Shown here one piece after another: positions 8,983 through 25,081 of a stretch of DNA of 28,524 bases (position 1 is the stretch's first letter; each line of letters starts with the position of its first letter). This DNA comes from a virus, in IMG/VR virus record IMGVR_UViG_3300032311_000368, positions 1 to 28,524 of that record. One strand, given 5' to 3'. The notes beneath the pieces are model-generated. The model worked only from the letters and a program-made list of their open reading frames with translations. It did not search any database and was not told the origin of the DNA. Made by a program: the position numbers and the translations under genes.

Positions 8983-8991
8983 ATTTTATCA
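8983..8991 (-). promoter_or_regulatory. Probable extended -10 before the LamG-like gene
   Basis: TGATAAAAT on the minus strand, about 16 nt before ATG 8967, with AGGAGAA in the short leader. It is weaker than the other copies of the motif because the hexamer is TAAAAT. Confidence 0.4.
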
Positions 8992-9519
8992 CACAATGCG
9001 AGTAAACCAGCGTGGTGTTGTAAATCTTGTACCCGTAATTATCTCTTTGACCCCATGAACATATCTAGGCTGATCTGGGAAACACAACAAGTCTCCTGGC
9101 TCTGGCTTAATTGAAATTTGATAGTCTGGGAAATAAATTTCTCCGCCTTCATAGTCATCATTCAAATACACAAGAGTTGCAATATCGTTTGGCCTTGAAG
9201 AATCAAAATGCTCATGCATTCCATGACCTTCTTCAAATTTTGCAATATGAGTCTTATGTGGATTGAATGGTTCAAAAGATTCTCCATAAGTGCTTAACAC
9301 GTGGTTATAAACCTTAAGTGCATACTCTTGCATTAGTTCTAGGATAGAAGCATCATTTGCCTCAATCTCATGATATGTGTAAACCTTAAATTCTTTTTCA
9401 TTATTACCGTGCATAGTAAACCCATTAGGGAAATTCTTTGCATGGTTATAAATTTTTGCAGCATCGTCTGCATTCATAAAACCTTTAATGTGATGTATCT
9501 GTGACACGTAGTCCTCCAT
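8989..9519 (-). CDS. 2OG-Fe(II) oxygenase, prolyl-4-hydroxylase-like
   Basis: A 176-residue single-domain dioxygenase. The jelly-roll signature is clear: H104-x-D106 (EHFDSS) gives two iron ligands, H155 (YVHGV) the third, and R165 (GTRFT) would bind the 2-oxoglutarate carboxylate. Between them is the typical LVYLNDDYEGGEIYFP and a GDLLCFP strand. This pattern matches prolyl-4-hydroxylase/PKHD-type enzymes, which hydroxylate proline or other side chains using O2 and 2-oxoglutarate. The start overlaps the ribonucleotide reductase stop as TAATG, so both come from one mRNA. Substrate is unknown. Collagen-like and Pro-rich fibres elsewhere in the window are attractive candidates (inference). Confidence 0.85.
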   Translation of the reverse strand: MEDYVSQIHHIKGFMNADDAAKIYNHAKNFPNGFTMHGNNEKEFKVYTYHEIEANDASILELMQEYALKVYNHVLSTYGESFEPFNPHKTHIAKFEEGHGMHEHFDSSRPNDIATLVYLNDDYEGGEIYFPDYQISIKPEPGDLLCFPDQPRYVHGVKEIITGTRFTTPRWFTRIV

Positions 9520-11640: not shown

Positions 11641-11782
11641 AGTTAAAACTCATACCTCTGTGTGCATCTTTTGTTTTTTTAGTAAGTTTATTAAATGTTA
11701 TAGTTTGTTCTATTCCAGTTACAGGACATTTCTGTACTATTGATCTGTATCCCAATAGGTGACGAATAAAGTTTTTAATCAT
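11639..11782 (-). CDS. 47-residue basic protein ending the oxygenase operon
   Basis: A short frame whose ATG (11782-11780) overlaps the TGA of the preceding oxygenase-like gene as ATGA, the usual signature of translational coupling. The product starts MIKNFIRHLLGYRSIVQKC and ends KTKDAHRGMSFN, 47 residues. It is strongly basic, with one Cys and a VTGIEQTITFNKL segment. No family is recognised. It fills the gap between the oxygenase-like gene and a candidate terminator, which supports it as a real gene. Function unknown. Confidence 0.6.
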   Translation of the reverse strand: MIKNFIRHLLGYRSIVQKCPVTGIEQTITFNKLTKKTKDAHRGMSFN

Positions 11783-12414
11783 AGAATTGGAACCCAATGT
11801 TGCTCTGGTGAGCCTTTCATATTTTGCAATGGAGATACATCATAGGCAATTGTAATTCTATCTTTTTCAAAAGGCCAGTTGCTAATACCATGAGCATGTC
11901 CAGTTTCAGAAAGGATTGCACGGTTATTAACATTAACATTTAAAAACTCTGTTTCTCCTGAAATCATATATTTTGTATATGAAGGTTCTGCATTGACACA
12001 GTAATATCCATGGAAATCTGGAGCGCCTTGCCCATTTAAATGATCATGAAGATATGTATTTGGTAGTGGCTCTGGCTTGCTATTCTTGTCAGCATTAAAC
12101 CATCCCTGAATCATATAGTTTTGACTTTTAGCATCGATGCCATAATATTCGCAGGCTTCTAAAACCATGTCGCTAATTGAGGAATATAGCGCTCTAATAT
12201 TCTCGTCATGGAACTGAAAAATATTATACTTTTCTCCTAGTTGAGTAGTAAATGATGCTCTATCTACTGACTCATAATCATTATTTTTTACCCCTGGAAC
12301 ATTTTCAGAAGAAAGTCTTTCTTTAAGACTTAAAAGAGAAGTCTCAAATTTTGGAAGATCTAGTTCTAGGTGTCTTTCAAAAAACTTATGATTTGGTTTT
12401 ACCATTGCTATCAT
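11779..12414 (-). CDS. 2OG-Fe(II) oxygenase-like protein, second of a tandem pair
   Basis: A 211-residue paralogue of the gene just upstream. Shared landmarks are the opening HKFFERHLELDL, QGWFN near residue 103, H123-D-H125 (YLHDHLN), FHGYYCVNAEPS, ILSETGHAHG with H173/H175, and R186 in DRITIAYDV. This resembles the 2OG-FeII_Oxy_5-type proteins common in aquatic phages, where an H-x-H or H-x-D pair and a distal His bind iron and an Arg binds 2-oxoglutarate. I chose ATG 12414 (MIAMVKPNHK) because it overlaps the previous TGA as ATGA. The longer frame from 12519 would overlap the paralogue by over 100 nt. Substrate unknown. Confidence 0.72.
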   Translation of the reverse strand: MIAMVKPNHKFFERHLELDLPKFETSLLSLKERLSSENVPGVKNNDYESVDRASFTTQLGEKYNIFQFHDENIRALYSSISDMVLEACEYYGIDAKSQNYMIQGWFNADKNSKPEPLPNTYLHDHLNGQGAPDFHGYYCVNAEPSYTKYMISGETEFLNVNVNNRAILSETGHAHGISNWPFEKDRITIAYDVSPLQNMKGSPEQHWVPIL

Positions 12415-13070
12415 GCTAAAGGAATCCAATGCTGCTCTTGATCCATTCCAAACTTTTGAATATCTCTTAATGGAATAACATCGTATGCAACTGTAATTCT
12501 TGGACCTTCCCAGTCCCAATCTGCCATTGAGTGTGGGTGTCCCATTTCAGAAAGGATTGCACGATCATTTTTGTTATGGTTCTCAATCTCTTTATCAAAA
12601 ACCTTATAGTATGTAATTGAAGGTTCTGCACTTACAGAATAATAACCATGGAAATTTGGAGCACCAGTTGGACCATGATCATGCCAATCAAGTTTACCCT
12701 TGCCAGCATGAGTAATATTAAACCAACCCTGAAGCATAAACTTTTCTTTTTCAAAGTCAACTCCATAGTAATCACAAGCCTCAATAGTCATGTCTTTAAC
12801 AGCCTTGTATAAATTATAAATACCAGTTGAGTGGAATTGGAAAACATTATACTGTCTCCACTTCATTGTTGACACACTATTAGATTGCTTCCATGCTTCG
12901 TTAGCCCCTACTGGAGTTACACCTACAACCTTTGCTTTTTCAATCTTTTCGTATCTGTCCTGTAGTTCTGATGCTAGGACTGATAGATTGTTATCAAGGT
13001 ATCTTTCAAAAAACTTATGTGGTTGAGTGGACTTGCTCACACTCTGAATATCCGTTGGATAGTTGTTCAT
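12411..13070 (-). CDS. 2OG-Fe(II) oxygenase-like protein, first of a tandem pair
   Basis: A 219-residue protein with GTAATAATG start context and AAAGGGAG upstream. Candidate iron ligands are H130 and H132 (DWHDHGP) and H178/H180 (EMGHPHS), with R191 (GPRITVAYDV) for the co-substrate. Between them is FHGYYSVSAEPSITYYKV, as in PF13759-type oxygenases. The first acidic ligand of the classic HxD motif is replaced by His in the last position (H-D-H), a point shared with its paralogue, so catalytic status should be checked. It heads an operon with its paralogue and a 47-residue gene, next to the sulfotransferase and Hint fibre genes, which points to modification of phage or cell-surface molecules. 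Confidence 0.72.
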   Translation of the reverse strand: MNNYPTDIQSVSKSTQPHKFFERYLDNNLSVLASELQDRYEKIEKAKVVGVTPVGANEAWKQSNSVSTMKWRQYNVFQFHSTGIYNLYKAVKDMTIEACDYYGVDFEKEKFMLQGWFNITHAGKGKLDWHDHGPTGAPNFHGYYSVSAEPSITYYKVFDKEIENHNKNDRAILSEMGHPHSMADWDWEGPRITVAYDVIPLRDIQKFGMDQEQHWIPLA

Positions 13071-13110: not shown

Positions 13111-13827
13111 CTAAAGTGGCTTTGGATTGGATCTTTTTGCCATCTCATACAAAAGTATATCATGCTGATTTAGTTCTTTAATCCTATTAATCATTTTGTC
13201 AGTTATATTAAACCTTTTAGATGTACTTGAGTTAAACATCATATTTCTATGTTGAAAGTTTGGAACAAACCCATATGTCTTGCTCATATATCTAATTATG
13301 TCATCCAACAATATGCCTCTGGTCTCTATTGTATAGCAACTAATAGCGTCAACCTTTGCCTGCATAACTGACTCATCAAATGAATAGTCTTTGAGAAACC
13401 ACTCATTCATGGTCTTATCCATTATGCTTTTAGTACTGTTAAATCCTGCTTCATCTACAGTTCCCGTCAAAAATTTTGTTTGCATATCAGAAAGGTATGG
13501 ATATATCTCTGGATTATATAGCCACTGGTCAAATATCTTTTCAAGTTCCTCAAAACTTCTGGAGTTTTCATACATGAAAAAGAACCAACTAATAAACCTC
13601 TCAACTGGATCTCTTAATATTGTAAAAGATTTTAAATCTTTAATAAATAGATTAGGATAGTTTCCTAAGTGTCCAGAAATAAACTCAACATCTTTAAACA
13701 TGTCTGGACTAATGGCCCTATCATGATAAACAATTGCTGATTTTAGTTTATTGGTCTGAAAAGCCAAATGGACCGCAGATCTAATAAATAGGCCTGAAGT
13801 CCTTGGCGCATGATGATGATAAAGCAA
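13111..13827 (-). CDS. Sulfotransferase-family protein
   Basis: A 238-residue protein whose layout matches PAPS-dependent sulfotransferases of the Sulfotransfer_2/HNK-1 type. Near the N-terminus, HHHAPRTSGLFIRSA stands in for the 5'-phosphosulfate loop (usual form HIPKTxGTS, here with Arg for Lys). SGHLG follows at 51-55, then the 3'-phosphate motif TILRDPVERFIS at 69-80, which is very well conserved. The remainder is helical. It would transfer sulfate from PAPS to a hydroxyl or amine on a sugar or protein. The only available start is TTG 13827, because an in-frame TAA lies directly upstream. It begins 5 nt after the stop of the FGFSP/Hint fibre and shares its mRNA. The degenerate 5' loop leaves activity unproven. 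Confidence 0.75.
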   Translation of the reverse strand: MLYHHHAPRTSGLFIRSAVHLAFQTNKLKSAIVYHDRAISPDMFKDVEFISGHLGNYPNLFIKDLKSFTILRDPVERFISWFFFMYENSRSFEELEKIFDQWLYNPEIYPYLSDMQTKFLTGTVDEAGFNSTKSIMDKTMNEWFLKDYSFDESVMQAKVDAISCYTIETRGILLDDIIRYMSKTYGFVPNFQHRNMMFNSSTSKRFNITDKMINRIKELNQHDILLYEMAKRSNPKPL

Positions 13828-13832
13828 TTACA

Positions 13833-15185
13833 TCATGACTTACGATTGTGTACTACTAGGTTTCCAGCGATAAATGTATCTACTGGCTCCATGTCGAACT
13901 TATAAACTGTTGATGGAGTTTCATCAATTTCAATTGATGTTACTAGGATCTCATTGAAAGAGTGAAGATTGTAATCATATTCCATGACATAGTCTCCAAC
14001 TTCTAGAAGTCCTGTATTGATATATCCATAGATGCCATTACGCTTATATAGAATTCCTTGTACAGTTGAGTACTTCTTTGTTGAGTCTCCGTTTACTGTC
14101 AATGTTGCTGGCATTTCTTTTTCAACAATAGATGCAACATTTGTTTTAACAATTGCCTGATCTGTTAGTTGATTGAAAGCCAGTGTCATTGGATCTGATA
14201 CAGACTCATCATCCATTTCTCGGAATGAGTGTGCCCAGGCTTCTTGCCCAGTAACAACATCCTTTGCAGGAATCTGAATATATGTATCATCTGGACCAAC
14301 AACTGATACTAGAGTATCAGGGGCAATACATGCTCCTCCTGGAGAGAAACCAAATACGCCGAATGGTGAGAATCCAAACACTCCGAATGGAGAGAACCCG
14401 AATGGTGAGAACCCAAATACACCGAACGGAGAGAATCCGAATACACCGAACGGAGAGAATCCGAATGGTGAGAAGCCGAATACACCGAATGGTGAGAAGC
14501 CGAATACACCGAATGGGGAGAAGCCGAATACTGAGAACGGTACAAATGAGAATGTTGTAACAGATGCTGACCATGCAGACCATTCTGACCAACCCTGAGC
14601 ATTGTAGGCTCTAACACGGTATGTCTGTGCTGTTCCTGCTTCTTGTGCAATATTTGTTGTAAGAGCATTAAGTGTTGCAGTCTTTCCATCAGATGATTCC
14701 ACCTGATAGTTAGTAATTGCTTCGCCACCGTTATCTGCTGGAGCAGACCATGACACTGTGTCATAAGTTGCACCTGATGGTGAAGATGCTGTAACACCTG
14801 TTGGAGCATCAGGAACAGACTTTACATCTGCGTTAGTCTGTGCAGACGATACAGATGTTGTCTCTATTGCTGCTTGAGAGATTGCTGCATTTGCAAGAAT
14901 TGTGAATGCATATGCTGTACCTGCTCTTAGACCTGTAACTGTAAATGGTGAAGATGTTGCTGTGAACGTCTTTGTTCCATATACTGAGTTAGCGTAAATT
15001 GTATAAGAAGAAGGGGTAGCACCCATAATGTTCTTATTGAATGTAATCACGGCTGTTGATGAGAAGTATGCTCCACCAAAACCTGGGACTACGCTTACGA
15101 TGTAAGGTTGCCCTGGGGCTACACCCCAAAAACTTACTGCAGCCTTAGCAGATTTACCTGCTTTACCACCTTTACGAATTGCCAT
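13833..15185 (-). CDS. Fibronectin-III fibre with FGFSP repeats and C-terminal Hint domain
   Basis: A 450-residue mosaic. Residues 1-20 are basic. About 27-118 and 124-212 are two fibronectin type III domains (VPDAPTGVTASSPSG, then ITNYQVESSDG and YRVRAYNAQGWSEWS are diagnostic). Residues 222-284 are three copies of a 21-residue Phe/Gly/Ser/Pro unit built from FSPFGV and FGFSP. At C286, after SPGGA, a Hint (hedgehog/intein) domain starts (CIAPDTLVSV), with VGDYV near 396-400 and the closing GNLVVHN at 441-447. Only RKS follows. The block-B His expected after Thr is absent (STKKYSTV). Hint domains rearrange the peptide bond before their first Cys and can cleave, ligate or attach nucleophiles. 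It has a GGGAGAA ribosome site and sits between Ala-rich fibre and sulfotransferase genes. Confidence 0.85.
   Translation of the reverse strand: MAIRKGGKAGKSAKAAVSFWGVAPGQPYIVSVVPGFGGAYFSSTAVITFNKNIMGATPSSYTIYANSVYGTKTFTATSSPFTVTGLRAGTAYAFTILANAAISQAAIETTSVSSAQTNADVKSVPDAPTGVTASSPSGATYDTVSWSAPADNGGEAITNYQVESSDGKTATLNALTTNIAQEAGTAQTYRVRAYNAQGWSEWSAWSASVTTFSFVPFSVFGFSPFGVFGFSPFGVFGFSPFGFSPFGVFGFSPFGVFGFSPFGFSPFGVFGFSPFGVFGFSPGGACIAPDTLVSVVGPDDTYIQIPAKDVVTGQEAWAHSFREMDDESVSDPMTLAFNQLTDQAIVKTNVASIVEKEMPATLTVNGDSTKKYSTVQGILYKRNGIYGYINTGLLEVGDYVMEYDYNLHSFNEILVTSIEIDETPSTVYKFDMEPVDTFIAGNLVVHNRKS
14334..14522 (-). repeat. Three tandem 63-nt units encoding the FGFSP repeats
   Basis: Residues 222-242, 243-263 and 264-284 of the fibre are the same 21-residue unit, the last differing only at its end where GG replaces FG. 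Each unit contains two FSPFGVFG steps followed by a short FSPFG step. The DNA copies differ mainly at third codon positions. Confidence 0.85.
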
Positions 15186-15217: not shown

Positions 15218-16630
15218 TTACGCTGTCAAGTCGCCAGATACGATCCAAGTATTTGTATCACGCTTGATCAATGTTGCCATTGAGTAACGATCACGGAACT
15301 TGAGTCCTGGTGTATTAAGAATTGTAACTCCTGAAGCAGCAGCAATTGTTGTCTGGCCTGCTCCCTTTTGGAATACGTCGATTGAAGAACCGATATTAAA
15401 GGCAACTGAAGCATTTGTAGGAATTGTAACAGTGTTTGCTGATGCTGATTCCATTTCTACTACGTTTCCTTCATCTCCAAGTACTACTGTGTAAGAAGTT
15501 GTCTTATTGTTAAATGAAGCCAATGTTGCTGCTGTAAGTTCAGCCTTGCTTGCCTTTAGAGCAAGAGCATTTGTCATTGTTGTTGAGAAGTTTGCATCGC
15601 TACCAAGCGCTGCTGCCAACTCATTAAGTGTGTCAAGTGCTGCTGGAGCAGATGCTACAAGGTTTGAAACTGCTGTTCCTACGAACGCTGTTGTTGCTAC
15701 CTGTGTAGTGTTTGTTCCTGCTGTTGCTGTTGGAGCAGTTGGTGTACCAGTAAATGCTGGTGATGCAAGTGCTGCCTTAAGAGCGTCTGCTGTATCTACG
15801 TATGACTTAGTTGCAAGTGCTGAAGTATCAGCAATTCCGTGTACATTTGTAGTATCTGCTTCGTGTGTTGACACGGCATTGTCAGCATAAGTCTTTGTAG
15901 CAAGAGCAGATGTATCGGAGATTCCGTGTACGTTTGCTGTTGCTGAATTATGTGTTGAGATTGCTGTTCCACGGTTTGTGGCTTCAGTTGTTCCTACTGC
16001 ATCAGCATAAGCCTTTGTAGCAAGAAGTGCTGTGTCAGCAATTCCGTGTACTGCAGTTGTATCTGCATTGTGAGTATTAACTTCAGCAAGTGCTGCTGCA
16101 TCTGCCTTAGCCTGTGCTCCAGATGTTGTTTCTAGAATTGCTGTGTTTGCAATTCCATGAACATCTGTTGTATCAGAGTTATGAGTTGAGATTAATGTAT
16201 TAACACCTGATGTTGTAGCAAGTGCTCCAGTATCTGCAATTCCGTGTACTGCAAGTGTTGTACCATTGTGGCCAGATACCTGGTTTGTAACATAAGTAAC
16301 TGCATCTGCAAGTTCCTTAAGTGTATCAAGTGCTTCTGGTGCTGAGGCAATAAGGTTTGTAAGATATCCAAGAGGAATCTTTCCTGATCCATCAAGTGGT
16401 GCTACACCATTGGTTGCACCCTTTTGTGTTAGTGGGACGTAGTCATCAAGAGTACCGCCCAAGTCTTCTAAGTTCTTAAAGTAGGAGAGATCTGACCATG
16501 CATTAACGCCATCACCAATTTTGAACTGGTTGGTGTCTGTCTCGTATCCAATTTCTCCTGCTGCCAAAATTGGATCTGCTGCCGTCCATTGGGCTGCAGT
16601 TCCTCTGCGCTGTTGCATTCTAGTTGCCAT
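15218..16630 (-). CDS. Tail fibre with Mtd-like N-terminus and Ala/Thr-rich shaft
   Basis: A 470-residue fibre. The N-terminus (QQRRGTAAQW, then GEIGYETDTNQFKIGDG and WSDLSYF) matches the attachment domain found in major-tropism-determinant and many other tail fibre proteins. Residues 80-370 are a repetitive shaft with recurring (V/I)HGI(A/S)DT-ALATK-(S/A)YAD units and helical Ala-rich stretches, typical of trimeric fibres. The last 95 residues (SYTVVLGDEGNVVEM through TWIVSGDLTA) are a C-terminal beta domain also found at the end of the protein encoded at 23979-24629. The leader has a small ATCCG/CGGAT hairpin and AAAGGAGA before ATG 16630. It shares its mRNA with the Hint fibre and sulfotransferase. 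Confidence 0.85.
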   Translation of the reverse strand: MATRMQQRRGTAAQWTAADPILAAGEIGYETDTNQFKIGDGVNAWSDLSYFKNLEDLGGTLDDYVPLTQKGATNGVAPLDGSGKIPLGYLTNLIASAPEALDTLKELADAVTYVTNQVSGHNGTTLAVHGIADTGALATTSGVNTLISTHNSDTTDVHGIANTAILETTSGAQAKADAAALAEVNTHNADTTAVHGIADTALLATKAYADAVGTTEATNRGTAISTHNSATANVHGISDTSALATKTYADNAVSTHEADTTNVHGIADTSALATKSYVDTADALKAALASPAFTGTPTAPTATAGTNTTQVATTAFVGTAVSNLVASAPAALDTLNELAAALGSDANFSTTMTNALALKASKAELTAATLASFNNKTTSYTVVLGDEGNVVEMESASANTVTIPTNASVAFNIGSSIDVFQKGAGQTTIAAASGVTILNTPGLKFRDRYSMATLIKRDTNTWIVSGDLTA

Positions 16631-22610: not shown

Positions 22611-23969
22611 TTACTTAGAAGCATACATGTTGTGGACTAGAATATCGTTTGCAAAATAAAGATCTTTTACTTCTGTATCGATTGAGACTGTTTCTACTGG
22701 AGAGTTTACGTACTGAATAGAATTAACCAATATAGTATCTCCCTCACTATCAACTACATAGTCCCCAACAACAACATTTTCCATTTGGGTAAACTTCCAC
22801 AGATCATCACGCTTTACAAGCATTGTGTGCTCATATGTAACCTTTAATTTATTATTTAATAAATAATATCCTTCCCAAGTTGATTTAATTATATTGGTAA
22901 CTGCTGTAGTAGTAAATGTTGCATCATCAAGATTATTTGATGTCCAAGAATCAAGGTATGAAGGATTTTCTTCATCTGGAATTGAAGATACGCTCAAAGA
23001 TAATAGTTCGTCTCCAACAACAAGATCTTCAATATTCTTATATGTTCTATCTGCAAGCAATATTGGAGTTCCATAAACAAGACATCCTCCACCACCAGGT
23101 GTGAAAGAAAATACGCTGAATCCAGTTATAAATCCAAATACGCTAAATCCTGCTGGTGTGAAAGAAAATACGCTGAATGTTGGTGCAAAAGAAAATACAG
23201 AAAATGCTGGAGTAGAGCATGAATCAATGCAGTAGTATGCTATTCCAGTTTGCTGTCCTGAACAGTTCAATACTTTAACTCTCATTGCAAGTCCGCAACA
23301 CTCTGAACGATATGCAGTTCCTGATGGGATTTCATCTGAATAACATGGAGTTGGCGTAGTTGGAGTAAAAGCAAATACGCTAAATGTAGGAGCAGGTGGT
23401 GTTGGTGTTGGTGTTGCTCCTGGACAGTTTCCTGGGAAACCAGATGAAGCAACACTATAACCAAGTGAAGGACAATAGGTTAGTTGTGGTACGCCACAAA
23501 ATGTGCGTCCCATGTTTCTTGGTGGACAAGTCTTTGCAGTACATGGATCATATTGATATTGATACCAAGTTCCATATCCATCAGCATCAACATTTACACA
23601 ATATCCAGCATCGTCATCTTGGCAGCAAGAATTATCTACTGGAGGAGTTGGGCTTACTGGCGATACTGGAGACACTGGGGACACTGGCGTTGGATCTGGG
23701 GTAAATCCAAAAACTGTAAATGCTGGGGCTGAGTAAGAATAGTACTGAATTGAAACAACTGTGTCATAGTCAACAGCAGTTCCTCCAGGAATTGATTGAG
23801 TGGCAACCTTTTGATCTAAATTAGATGTTTGAGTTGTTATTGGTGTACTAATTACTGCGGGAACAAGTCCAAGCGATTGCAACGTTGTTGATGCATTAGT
23901 ATATGATAAAGTTGAAAGGTCTGGTACTACAACCATACCCTTTCCAAATAGCCCAAGTGTAGTTAGCAT
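22611..23969 (-). CDS. PASTA / Pro-rich / Cys-rich fibre with C-terminal Hint domain
   Basis: A 452-residue mosaic. Residues 10-78 are a PASTA-like domain (VVVPDLSTLSYTNASTTLQS, GLVPAVISTPI, ATQSIPGGTAVDYDT). An AFTVFGFTP element and a (VSP)4 run at 96-107 follow. Residues 114-192 and 209-252 are two Cys-rich modules, each flanked by FSVFxFTP elements. Residues 255-292 contain four more FSVFxF elements. C296, after TPGGGG, opens a Hint domain (CLVYGTPILLADRTY, ADRTYKNIEDLVVGDELL) with the block-B Thr-x-x-His (VTYEHTML) intact and the end DILVHN at 442-447. MYASK follows. The missing Cys/Ser/Thr after HN argues against protein splicing and for cleavage or ligation. It forms one transcription unit with fibre genes and the GT60-like enzyme. 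Confidence 0.83.
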   Translation of the reverse strand: MLTTLGLFGKGMVVVPDLSTLSYTNASTTLQSLGLVPAVISTPITTQTSNLDQKVATQSIPGGTAVDYDTVVSIQYYSYSAPAFTVFGFTPDPTPVSPVSPVSPVSPTPPVDNSCCQDDDAGYCVNVDADGYGTWYQYQYDPCTAKTCPPRNMGRTFCGVPQLTYCPSLGYSVASSGFPGNCPGATPTPTPPAPTFSVFAFTPTTPTPCYSDEIPSGTAYRSECCGLAMRVKVLNCSGQQTGIAYYCIDSCSTPAFSVFSFAPTFSVFSFTPAGFSVFGFITGFSVFSFTPGGGGCLVYGTPILLADRTYKNIEDLVVGDELLSLSVSSIPDEENPSYLDSWTSNNLDDATFTTTAVTNIIKSTWEGYYLLNNKLKVTYEHTMLVKRDDLWKFTQMENVVVGDYVVDSEGDTILVNSIQYVNSPVETVSIDTEVKDLYFANDILVHNMYASK

Positions 23970-23978
23970 TTCTAAAAC

Positions 23979-24629
23979 CTACGCTATCAAATCGCCAACA
24001 AGGATCCAGGTGTTCTCTTCTATCTTAATAAGTGTTGCTCCTGAGTATCTTGCTGCAATCTTCTTATTAGAATTTTTGCTTTGAATAGTTACTCCAACAG
24101 CGCCAGCAATTGATGTAATTCCAACTCCGTAGCGAAGAATATCAAGTCTTTGACCAATTACAAATGGAGTGGTGCTATTTGCTGGAACTAAAATTTCATT
24201 TGCAGTATCGGAATTTGCAATAATTGTTCGACCAGCATCTTCGAGTGTAATTGTATATGTTGCTGTATTTGTCTTTGAAAGAAGTGGAGTTGAATCAGAA
24301 AAAGACCTCCAACTAGTTCCATCAAAGTATTGAATCTGATTAATAGGAAGACCTGCTGCATCATTTCTTACAAAACAGACAATTCCTTTTTTATTTTCTG
24401 CAGAAATATCAGCAAAAACTAAATCTCTGGCTGCTGGGTTTAAAAAGTTATTTACTCCAGCCTTTGCTTTTACAACAGTATCAAAAGTTACTGTACTTGA
24501 AAACCGCTGATCTGCTGACCAAGTATATGCTGCACCAGTATTAACTGCTCCTGCAATTGGGTGCCACTTATCTGTTGCTGAACTATAAATATATGCTACT
24601 TTAGATTCTGAATCAATAACCTTTGGCAT
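23979..24629 (-). CDS. Tail fibre protein with shared C-terminal beta domain
   Basis: A 216-residue protein. The N-terminus (MPKVIDSESKVAYIYSSA, then TDKWHPIAG) contains a short module for fibre attachment. The middle has NQIQYFDGTSWRSFSD. The last 90 residues (ATYTITLEDAGRTIIANSD, GQRLDILRYGVGITSIAG, TLIKIEENTWILVGDLIA) align with the C-terminus of the 470-residue fibre at 15218-16630. I chose ATG 24629, which overlaps the previous stop as TAATG. The longer frame from 24677 would overlap the previous gene by 48 nt. Followed by the PASTA/Hint fibre after a 9-nt gap. Confidence 0.78.
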   Translation of the reverse strand: MPKVIDSESKVAYIYSSATDKWHPIAGAVNTGAAYTWSADQRFSSTVTFDTVVKAKAGVNNFLNPAARDLVFADISAENKKGIVCFVRNDAAGLPINQIQYFDGTSWRSFSDSTPLLSKTNTATYTITLEDAGRTIIANSDTANEILVPANSTTPFVIGQRLDILRYGVGITSIAGAVGVTIQSKNSNKKIAARYSGATLIKIEENTWILVGDLIA

Positions 24630-25081
24630 TATGCACCAACCTTTACAAATGAAGTAGTAGAAGAATCGTAAACCCACATTTCAAGTGGAGACGTACCCTT
24701 TTTAATCCAAATTAAACCATTAACAAGTCCAGTAGTTGGTGCTGCTGTTTGATATTGAGAAGTTGCAAATTGAACCCCAGTTCCACCAGTTACATCTGAG
24801 TCTACCCAAATCATTCCATCAATAATTGATGATGGCTCATTTGCCGTATATGTGCTTCCAATACCTTTTGCATTAATAGCAGCAATATCTGTTTTAATGT
24901 CTTTAATGTGTCCCACAAGAGATGGCCTTACAATGTCTGCCTCTGATGCTGGAGGAGTCTTTGACCCGTAGTGATAGATTCGAAGCGCTTCTTGAATATC
25001 AGCAGCCTCGTCCATTCCAGGAACCTTGGTATTAAATACGCCTGTTCCGTTGTCTGTGTTGTCTATGTTTTTATTTGCCAT
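24629..25081 (-). CDS. Small fibre/adhesin protein
   Basis: A 150-residue protein with AAAGGTGA before ATG 25081. The N-terminal half (MDEAADIQEALRIYHYGSK, then VRPSLVGHIKDIKTDIAAI) is helical and looks like a fibre base. The C-terminal half has two EGxxWxD-type fibre modules (SSIIDGMIWVDSD and GLVNGLIWIKKG) ending VYDSSTTSFVKVGA, like the module in the short fibre at 16690. It is the first gene of the unit that includes the PASTA/Hint fibre and the GT60-like enzyme. Confidence 0.72.
   Translation of the reverse strand: MANKNIDNTDNGTGVFNTKVPGMDEAADIQEALRIYHYGSKTPPASEADIVRPSLVGHIKDIKTDIAAINAKGIGSTYTANEPSSIIDGMIWVDSDVTGGTGVQFATSQYQTAAPTTGLVNGLIWIKKGTSPLEMWVYDSSTTSFVKVGA

Follow-up and report, generated by a model that had tools for sequence, protein, structure and literature searches.

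The gene at positions 13833-15185 of the window (the whole 28,524-nt stretch of viral DNA analysed here) encodes a fibre-like protein that ends in a Hint-like domain, and it raises the question of what an autoprocessing fold would do at the tip of a phage fibre. The answer we prefer, with about as much conviction as doubt, is that the protein is a tail adhesin whose C-terminal, A-type-BIL-like Hint autoprocessing domain would free or cap the fibre end. The FSPFG repeat of this 450-residue protein is built of FGFSP and FGVFGFSP units and is followed by GGA and then by Cys286, from which 165 residues lead to the stop, ending in VVHN-RKS. An earlier reading made from the letters alone (the sequence-only reading) had called two FN3 domains, and Pfam fn3 indeed matched two stretches of the protein (E 1.4e-12); the Cys286 codon at 14328-14330 and the end of Asn447 at 13845 also lie where that reading had placed them, and the tail is RKS. 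The gene has the following features.

13833..15185, minus strand: fibre-like protein of 450 aa (ORF), with N-terminal region and FN3, FSPFG repeat, Hint and tail RKS
14568..14810, minus strand: best-scoring FN3 domain, residues 126-206 (Pfam PF00041, E 1.4e-12)
14340..14546, minus strand: FSPFG repeat, residues 214-282
13845..14330, minus strand: Hint domain, Cys286 to Asn447 (AlphaFold model and PDB structure comparison)
14328..14330, minus strand: Cys286, Hint position 1 (nucleophile), invariant in 36/36 aligned Cys-type clusters
14145..14147, minus strand: Lys347 (Hint Lys62), candidate compensating residue, invariant in 5/5 clusters of the His-less clade
14058..14069, minus strand: block-B position, Ser-Thr-Val-Gln (SxxQ) in place of Thr-x-x-His (alignments)
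13845..13850, minus strand: His446-Asn447, block G, kept in 36/36 aligned Cys-type clusters
13836..13844, minus strand: tail Arg-Lys-Ser after HN; Lys in 37/37 Cys-type cluster tails

Fold and setting of the fibre-tip domain

Sequence libraries alone returned only sub-threshold Hint-family matches (Pfam Intein_splicing at 13.8 bits, below its cut-off of 35.8; no NCBIfam match to the protein at E 1), and the fold was settled by the predicted structure. The AlphaFold model of the domain (pLDDT 94.9, pTM 0.89) found its best PDB match in the Mtu RecA intein (5i0a; Z 18.7, rmsd 1.9 over 137 residues), and its residues 1-162 align from intein residue 1 (Cys1) to the last Asn. The top 20 PDB matches include inteins (best 18.7), the Hedgehog autoprocessing domain (1at0, Z 17.8) and BIL domains (Tetrahymena BIL2 6y75, 17.5; C. 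thermocellum 2lwy, 16.3), so that the proposed Hint domain at residues 286-447 is borne out by structure prediction and comparison. Pfam matched no S74 domain in the protein at E 1, an absence that weighs little by itself; in the structure comparison the alignment to Hint folds covers the entire domain.

The domain combines the horseshoe Hint fold with a Cys/Ser nucleophile at position 1 (Cys286), as expected of the HINT superfamily. The block-B Thr-x-x-His motif is usual in that superfamily, not universal; it reads SxxQ in this copy and TYEH in a second copy described below. Like type A BILs, both copies end in His-Asn with a non-nucleophile at +1, Arg448 here and Met448 in the second copy. 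A class 1 intein would have Cys/Ser/Thr at +1 and a C-extein restoring the host protein; only RKS follows HN, and the earlier statement that there is no C-extein nucleophile is correct, Arg448 occupying +1. Cys286 separates the domain from class 3 inteins, which have no Cys/Ser at position 1, and the three residues after the Hint leave no sterol-recognition region of the kind found in Hedgehog Hog domains. A selfish intein was rejected: there is no C-extein host protein, no room for an endonuclease, and only RKS after HN.

Comparison of the Hint with six close relatives (L001-L006) gave dN/dS of 0.09-0.16, by which pseudogene decay was rejected and the domain is judged to be under purifying selection. 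Other pairs gave 0.08 (L005/L006) and 0.33-0.35 (against L068, against L123, and L066/L123; dS above 1.2), and the value of 0.54 for L003/L004 comes from a pair too close to judge (dS 0.05).

Searching the whole window with this Hint revealed a second one (E 1.6e-8) at the end of another fibre-like protein. This protein and the tail fibre gene that adjoins the first Hint gene have the following features.

22611..23969, minus strand: second fibre-like protein, 452 aa, with PASTA, FxFTP repeats, Cys-rich cassettes and Hint
23745..23933, minus strand: PASTA domain, residues 13-75 (Pfam PF03793, E 3.6e-7)
22629..23084, minus strand: second Hint, Cys296 to Asn447, with complete TYEH and LVHN motifs, then tail MYASK
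15218..16630, minus strand: tail fibre protein with Mtd_N domain, adhesin-module context (Pfam E 1.4e-14; PHROG tail fiber matches)

The neighbours of the Hint fibres are tail proteins, namely the Mtd_N fibre, further proteins with PHROG tail-fibre matches and a collagen-like protein. In a fused relative, L134, the N-terminus matches the tail proteins at 24629-25081 (E 6e-17) and 23979-24677 (E 8e-18), and a single chain runs from this tail-protein N-terminus into repeats and then a Hint. The tail-gene context and this fusion lead us to regard both Hint proteins as probable virion fibres. In its best matches the portal shares about 47% identity with portals of Streptomyces phages, and an actinobacterial host is plausible.

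Two catalytic types among the relatives

Scans of viral contigs yielded 9, 7, 36, 17, the best 80 of 243, and 19 loci, partly overlapping, the best 80 of 243 being the Ser-type relatives that entered the analysis. The 180 tabulated Hint entries, which hold some places twice, reduce to 107 distinct C-terminal sequences in 65 clusters; viral contigs are the source of almost all of them. The placing of domain starts was partly manual, with Thr6 as the register, and was checked by MAFFT and hhalign; the column counts exclude L050 (misaligned, its own TFDH intact), and a 34-residue fragment (L009) and an ORF of phage NCTB lacking Cys1 were also set aside.

Every one of the 65 clusters has Cys or Ser at position 1, and they fall into two types. 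The Cys type comprises 37 clusters, all ending in His-Asn and all with Lys in the tail; Cys1 and His-Asn are kept in all 36 that were aligned, with TxxH at block B in 31 and SxxQ or SxxE in 5. Seven of its 152 well-filled columns are invariant (36 clusters), and Cys1, His and Asn account for three of them. The Ser type keeps Ser1 and the block-B His in 28/28 clusters and ends in Asp in 27 of them and in Asn in one, the residue before last being H in 21, F in 3, Y in 3 and M in 1. Its invariant columns number 11 of 156, including Ser1 and the block-B His, and no further invariant His was seen among these 28-cluster columns. A Ser-type model showed the same Hint fold (pLDDT 92.4, Z 15.9), and inteins beginning with Ser1 are known, reportedly needing special activation (PMC10189870).

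In a tree built with the catalytic columns included, a branch (99/96) sets the Ser type apart, and a clade lacking the block-B His, to which the 13833-15185 copy belongs, is nested in the Cys type (99/93) and adjoins a clade whose tail is a single Lys. Most simply, the block-B His would have been lost once, from a complete ancestor. Since the Cys/Ser divide is a single event on this tree, the co-occurrence of Cys1, HN and Lys represents conserved inheritance rather than repeated invention.

The tail after HN contains Lys in 37/37 Cys-type clusters and is a single Lys in 16. Counted over distinct tails, Lys is present in 21/21, against 10.1 expected from matched controls, 496 other C-termini of the same loci; the probability of Lys in all Cys-type tails is 4e-8 if these are independent and 4e-4 on 8 lineages. 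Among the Ser-type tails, Lys occurs in 8/28 against 14.7 expected. As Lys is frequent at C-termini of all kinds and these tails share ancestry, the excess in the Cys type is suggestive only. The tail Lys is of interest because Tetrahymena BIL2 is reported to join its cargo to a Lys side chain through an isopeptide bond (PMC8616854).

That both types retain the nucleophile speaks for an autoprocessing domain that works, in which the constant step would be activation of the fibre's last peptide bond. Because Ser1 and the block-B His, which serve the first half of the chemistry, are all that the Ser type keeps strictly, activation of the fibre end would be the conserved function. The Ser-type relatives seem built for the N-terminal step only, the one step that the Hedgehog autoprocessing domain is reported to use (PMC7664689); unlike that domain, the phage Hint has no following sterol-recognition region and has a His-Asn end. 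That related fibres carry two strict catalytic versions suggests that they process their own tips.

Activity of the 13833-15185 copy and competing explanations

The block-B His drives the first step in most inteins. Its register in the 13833-15185 copy was fixed by profile alignment to the RadA intein and by between-class hhalign (probability 99.3-99.9). The His-less clade holding this copy comprises 13 distinct sequences in 5 clusters, with Gln at the block-B position in 4/5 and Glu in 1/5, and it has a small Gly/Ala at -1. The first step reportedly failed in the H73A mutant of Ssp DnaB when Gly stood at -1, and bulky -1 residues rescued it (PMC6333167). Since this copy combines the lost His with a Gly/Ala at -1, its autoprocessing activity is doubtful, real as its fold and its kept Cys1 and HN are. 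Lys62 of the Hint (Lys347), invariant in all five His-less clusters and mostly Thr or Glu in the others, is a candidate for compensating the loss. A natural loss of the block-B His is also seen in the Tko CDC21-1 intein, where a Lys is reported to compensate (PMC7765530); that intein has Leu at -1 (PMC6333167), unlike the Gly/Ala of the His-less clade, for which Lys347 is a candidate equivalent.

The self-cleavage or ligation predicted by the sequence-only reading therefore survives in part: the Hint fold, the kept Cys1 and His-Asn, purifying selection and the lack of Cys/Ser/Thr at +1 speak for it, and the missing block-B His and the Gly/Ala at -1 speak against it. Either reaction is more likely for the second copy (22611-23969), whose predicted greater activity follows from its full set of catalytic residues.

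In the preferred reading, the Hint would fold at the fibre tip, and the fibre's final residue (Ala285 in this protein, Gly in relatives) would shift onto Cys286 as a thioester. Water or a tail amine would then break this thioester, the amine being either the alpha-amine freed after Asn447 cyclises or a Lys side chain, and the fibre would be left free of the Hint or capped with a short peptide. The Hint would then be a detachable C-terminal maturation domain, a role like that of the S74 tailspike chaperone (PMC7824862), which has a different fold. In the 13833-15185 copy, with Gln in place of the block-B His, one would expect this activation to be slow or conditional, or else to have the help of another residue, Lys347 being the candidate.

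The domain might instead be an inert structural cap, that is, a stable C-terminal domain serving as a trimer cap or receptor-binding head whose catalytic residues are remnants. Loss of the block-B His in the clade of this copy would suit such a cap, as would the variable residue before last and the change from Asn to Asp in 27/28 Ser-type clusters, and 35 of the 83 ORFs that bear the repeat have no Hint at all. A pure cap would not need catalytic residues, and their strict retention (Cys or Ser at position 1 throughout the 65 clusters; Cys1, His and Asn among the seven invariant Cys-type columns) counts against this explanation, which we consider unlikely. A ligation device, in which the activated fibre end would be joined by an isopeptide bond to an amine elsewhere (the tail Lys of a neighbouring fibre, another virion protein or the host surface), draws on the Lys found in every Cys-type cluster tail and on the isopeptide bond formed by Tetrahymena BIL2 (PMC8616854). 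Phages also often carry two Hint fibres, and both Hints were of the same Cys or Ser type in 22/22 records in which both were read (the window counted). The acceptor is hypothetical, however, and 20 of the 28 Ser-type tails have no Lys. Nor is the pair needed. Seven records with a PASTA match carry a Hint on the FN3 fibre only, by which strict pairing of both Hint fibres was rejected; in the five of these that were read, chosen for this mismatch (G036, G028, G085, G049, G031), the PASTA ORF ends without a Hint, so one Hint per phage is enough there. Ligation is accordingly rated an improbable reading, below the cap.

Splicing of the A-type BIL kind would run through cyclisation of Asn447 and attack of the freed tail amine on the thioester, releasing the Hint and adding RKS, MYASK or a single Lys to the fibre. 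Type A BILs (2lwy, 6y75) resemble the phage Hint in fold, and the family profile matches 2lwy at E 8e-10; Cys1 and HN with a non-nucleophilic +1 residue are the A-type pattern, and BILs without a +1 nucleophile are reported to splice and cleave (PMC4031507). Cys1 and HN are co-conserved in the phage family, and the one-residue tail Lys of 16 clusters would suit such a product. Unlike those BILs, the phage Hints sit at the C-termini of fibre-like proteins, have a short Lys-bearing tail and a sister type that begins with Ser1 and ends in Asp, and read SxxQ at block B in the 13833-15185 copy. Splicing would have no evident purpose, the tails vary from 1 to 22 residues and this copy lacks the block-B His, and we consider it the least probable of these explanations. 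On a broader view, to which we likewise give little credence, fibre-tip Hints across a widespread phage group would be a covalent coupling device that passes the Cys1- or Ser1-activated end to a lysine amine (of the own tail, a neighbouring fibre or a receptor) and yields isopeptide-linked fibres, with the Cys and Ser types as two tunings and the His-to-Gln clade as a switched version.

If the Hints work, phage tail fibres would possess an ATP-free, self-contained means of cutting or coupling their tips, a route beside the S74 autopeptidase. The natural variants of one fibre kind (complete, His-less, Ser1/Asp-ended and Hint-free) form a series for testing which half of the intein chemistry is needed, and they may supply new N-terminal-step domains for protein engineering.

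Distribution of the fibre-tip Hint and observations on the locus

A C-terminal Hint on a phage fibre had been called unusual by the sequence-only reading, which does not hold as to frequency: the window itself carries two, and many more occur in viral contigs. A DNA pattern for FGFSPFGVFGFSP found 82 stretches with 83 ORFs in viral contigs. A Cys/HN Hint closes 22 of these ORFs and a Ser-type Hint 21. A further 35 have no Hint, their stop being seen 6-44 residues past the repeat, four are cut by the end of the locus and a stop interrupts one (L056). Because 35 of 83 natural repeat ORFs end without it, a Hint-less fibre is viable. Whole records carried a Hint in 45/50 and 23/48 cases, and five records (L059/L084, L082/L111, L086/L101, L103/L104, L052/L100) are free of Hints throughout, each of their two fibres having FNFAPWG as its end.

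Among the papers listed from the open full-text literature, none gave an account of a C-terminal Hint on phage fibres, and we found no experiment on any family member and no virion proteomics. The arrangement is frequent, yet little described, the latter in keeping with this literature search. Pattern scans of genome contigs, which detect only sequences matching conserved peptide patterns, confirmed relatives in 0/33 (A1) and 0/19 (A4) candidate stretches and so pointed to no cellular origin or prophage host. BFVD holds similar uncultured-phage proteins named as FN3, PASTA or Hint domain proteins.

In a collection of isolated phages the Hint of the 13833-15185 protein had no match, and the whole protein matched 14 records through its FN3 region only. 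The second copy's Hint matched 56 records at E 0.01, of which 48 are Erwinia phages and two Acinetobacter phages; the match in Acinetobacter phage ME3 (H53) lies in the terminase gene and is presumably an ordinary intein. The jumbo phages Yoloswag, fHe-Yen9-02 and NCTB, and by match also Dickeya AD1 and Erwinia Y3, carry the same Hint subfamily. In NCTB, Yoloswag and fHe-Yen9-02, the records that were read, it closes a tail fibre and ends in HN and a Lys-bearing tail; these fibres differ in being collagen-like rather than of FN3/FSPFG build and in having TxxH intact. NCTB already bears the annotation 'contains intein domain'. In this phage a Hint also ends a 1304-aa protein, and the Hint-only ORF that lacks Cys1 (L019 6480-6941; 153 aa, end LVHN-KVD) lies between two tail fibre genes. 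Day et al. 2018 treat Yoloswag_102, Y3_104 and AD1_102 as tail fibres, and 'intein' and 'mass spectrometry' are absent from that text (PMC6143709). A 665-aa protein (L050/L146) has two Hint-like matches in one frame, the last ending VHN-KKF, and an N-terminal part of another kind.

A sulfotransferase-like gene (13111-13827) lies directly after the first Hint gene and a GlcNAc-transferase gene (PF11397, 21654-22610) directly after the second, with a 2OG-Fe(II) oxygenase gene (8989-9519) near the Hint genes; a part for all three in fibre modification is possible. A linked modification enzyme was rejected, the PF11397 GlcNAc-transferase being present in only 8/47 related records. After the sulfotransferase-like gene, positions 11779-13070 hold two overlapping paralogous ORFs (42% identity over 209 residues), neither with a Pfam match at E 0.001.

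The FSPFG repeat (69 codons) shows zero amino-acid changes against L001-L006 at dS 0.20-0.68, and zero again in 61 codons against L123 and in L066/L123 (dS 0.56 and 1.07); against L068 it differs (dN 0.07 in 66 codons, dS 1.1). The repeat is thus unchanged in 8/9 comparisons examined, the order of short and long units included, and is either more constrained than the flanking domains or homogenised. Among relatives of the PASTA fibre (L012-L018, L133-L145), the linker repeats are swapped wholesale (FxFTP, PT, VTP, TIN and QNT units), and the Cys-rich cassettes and Hints that flank them are similar.
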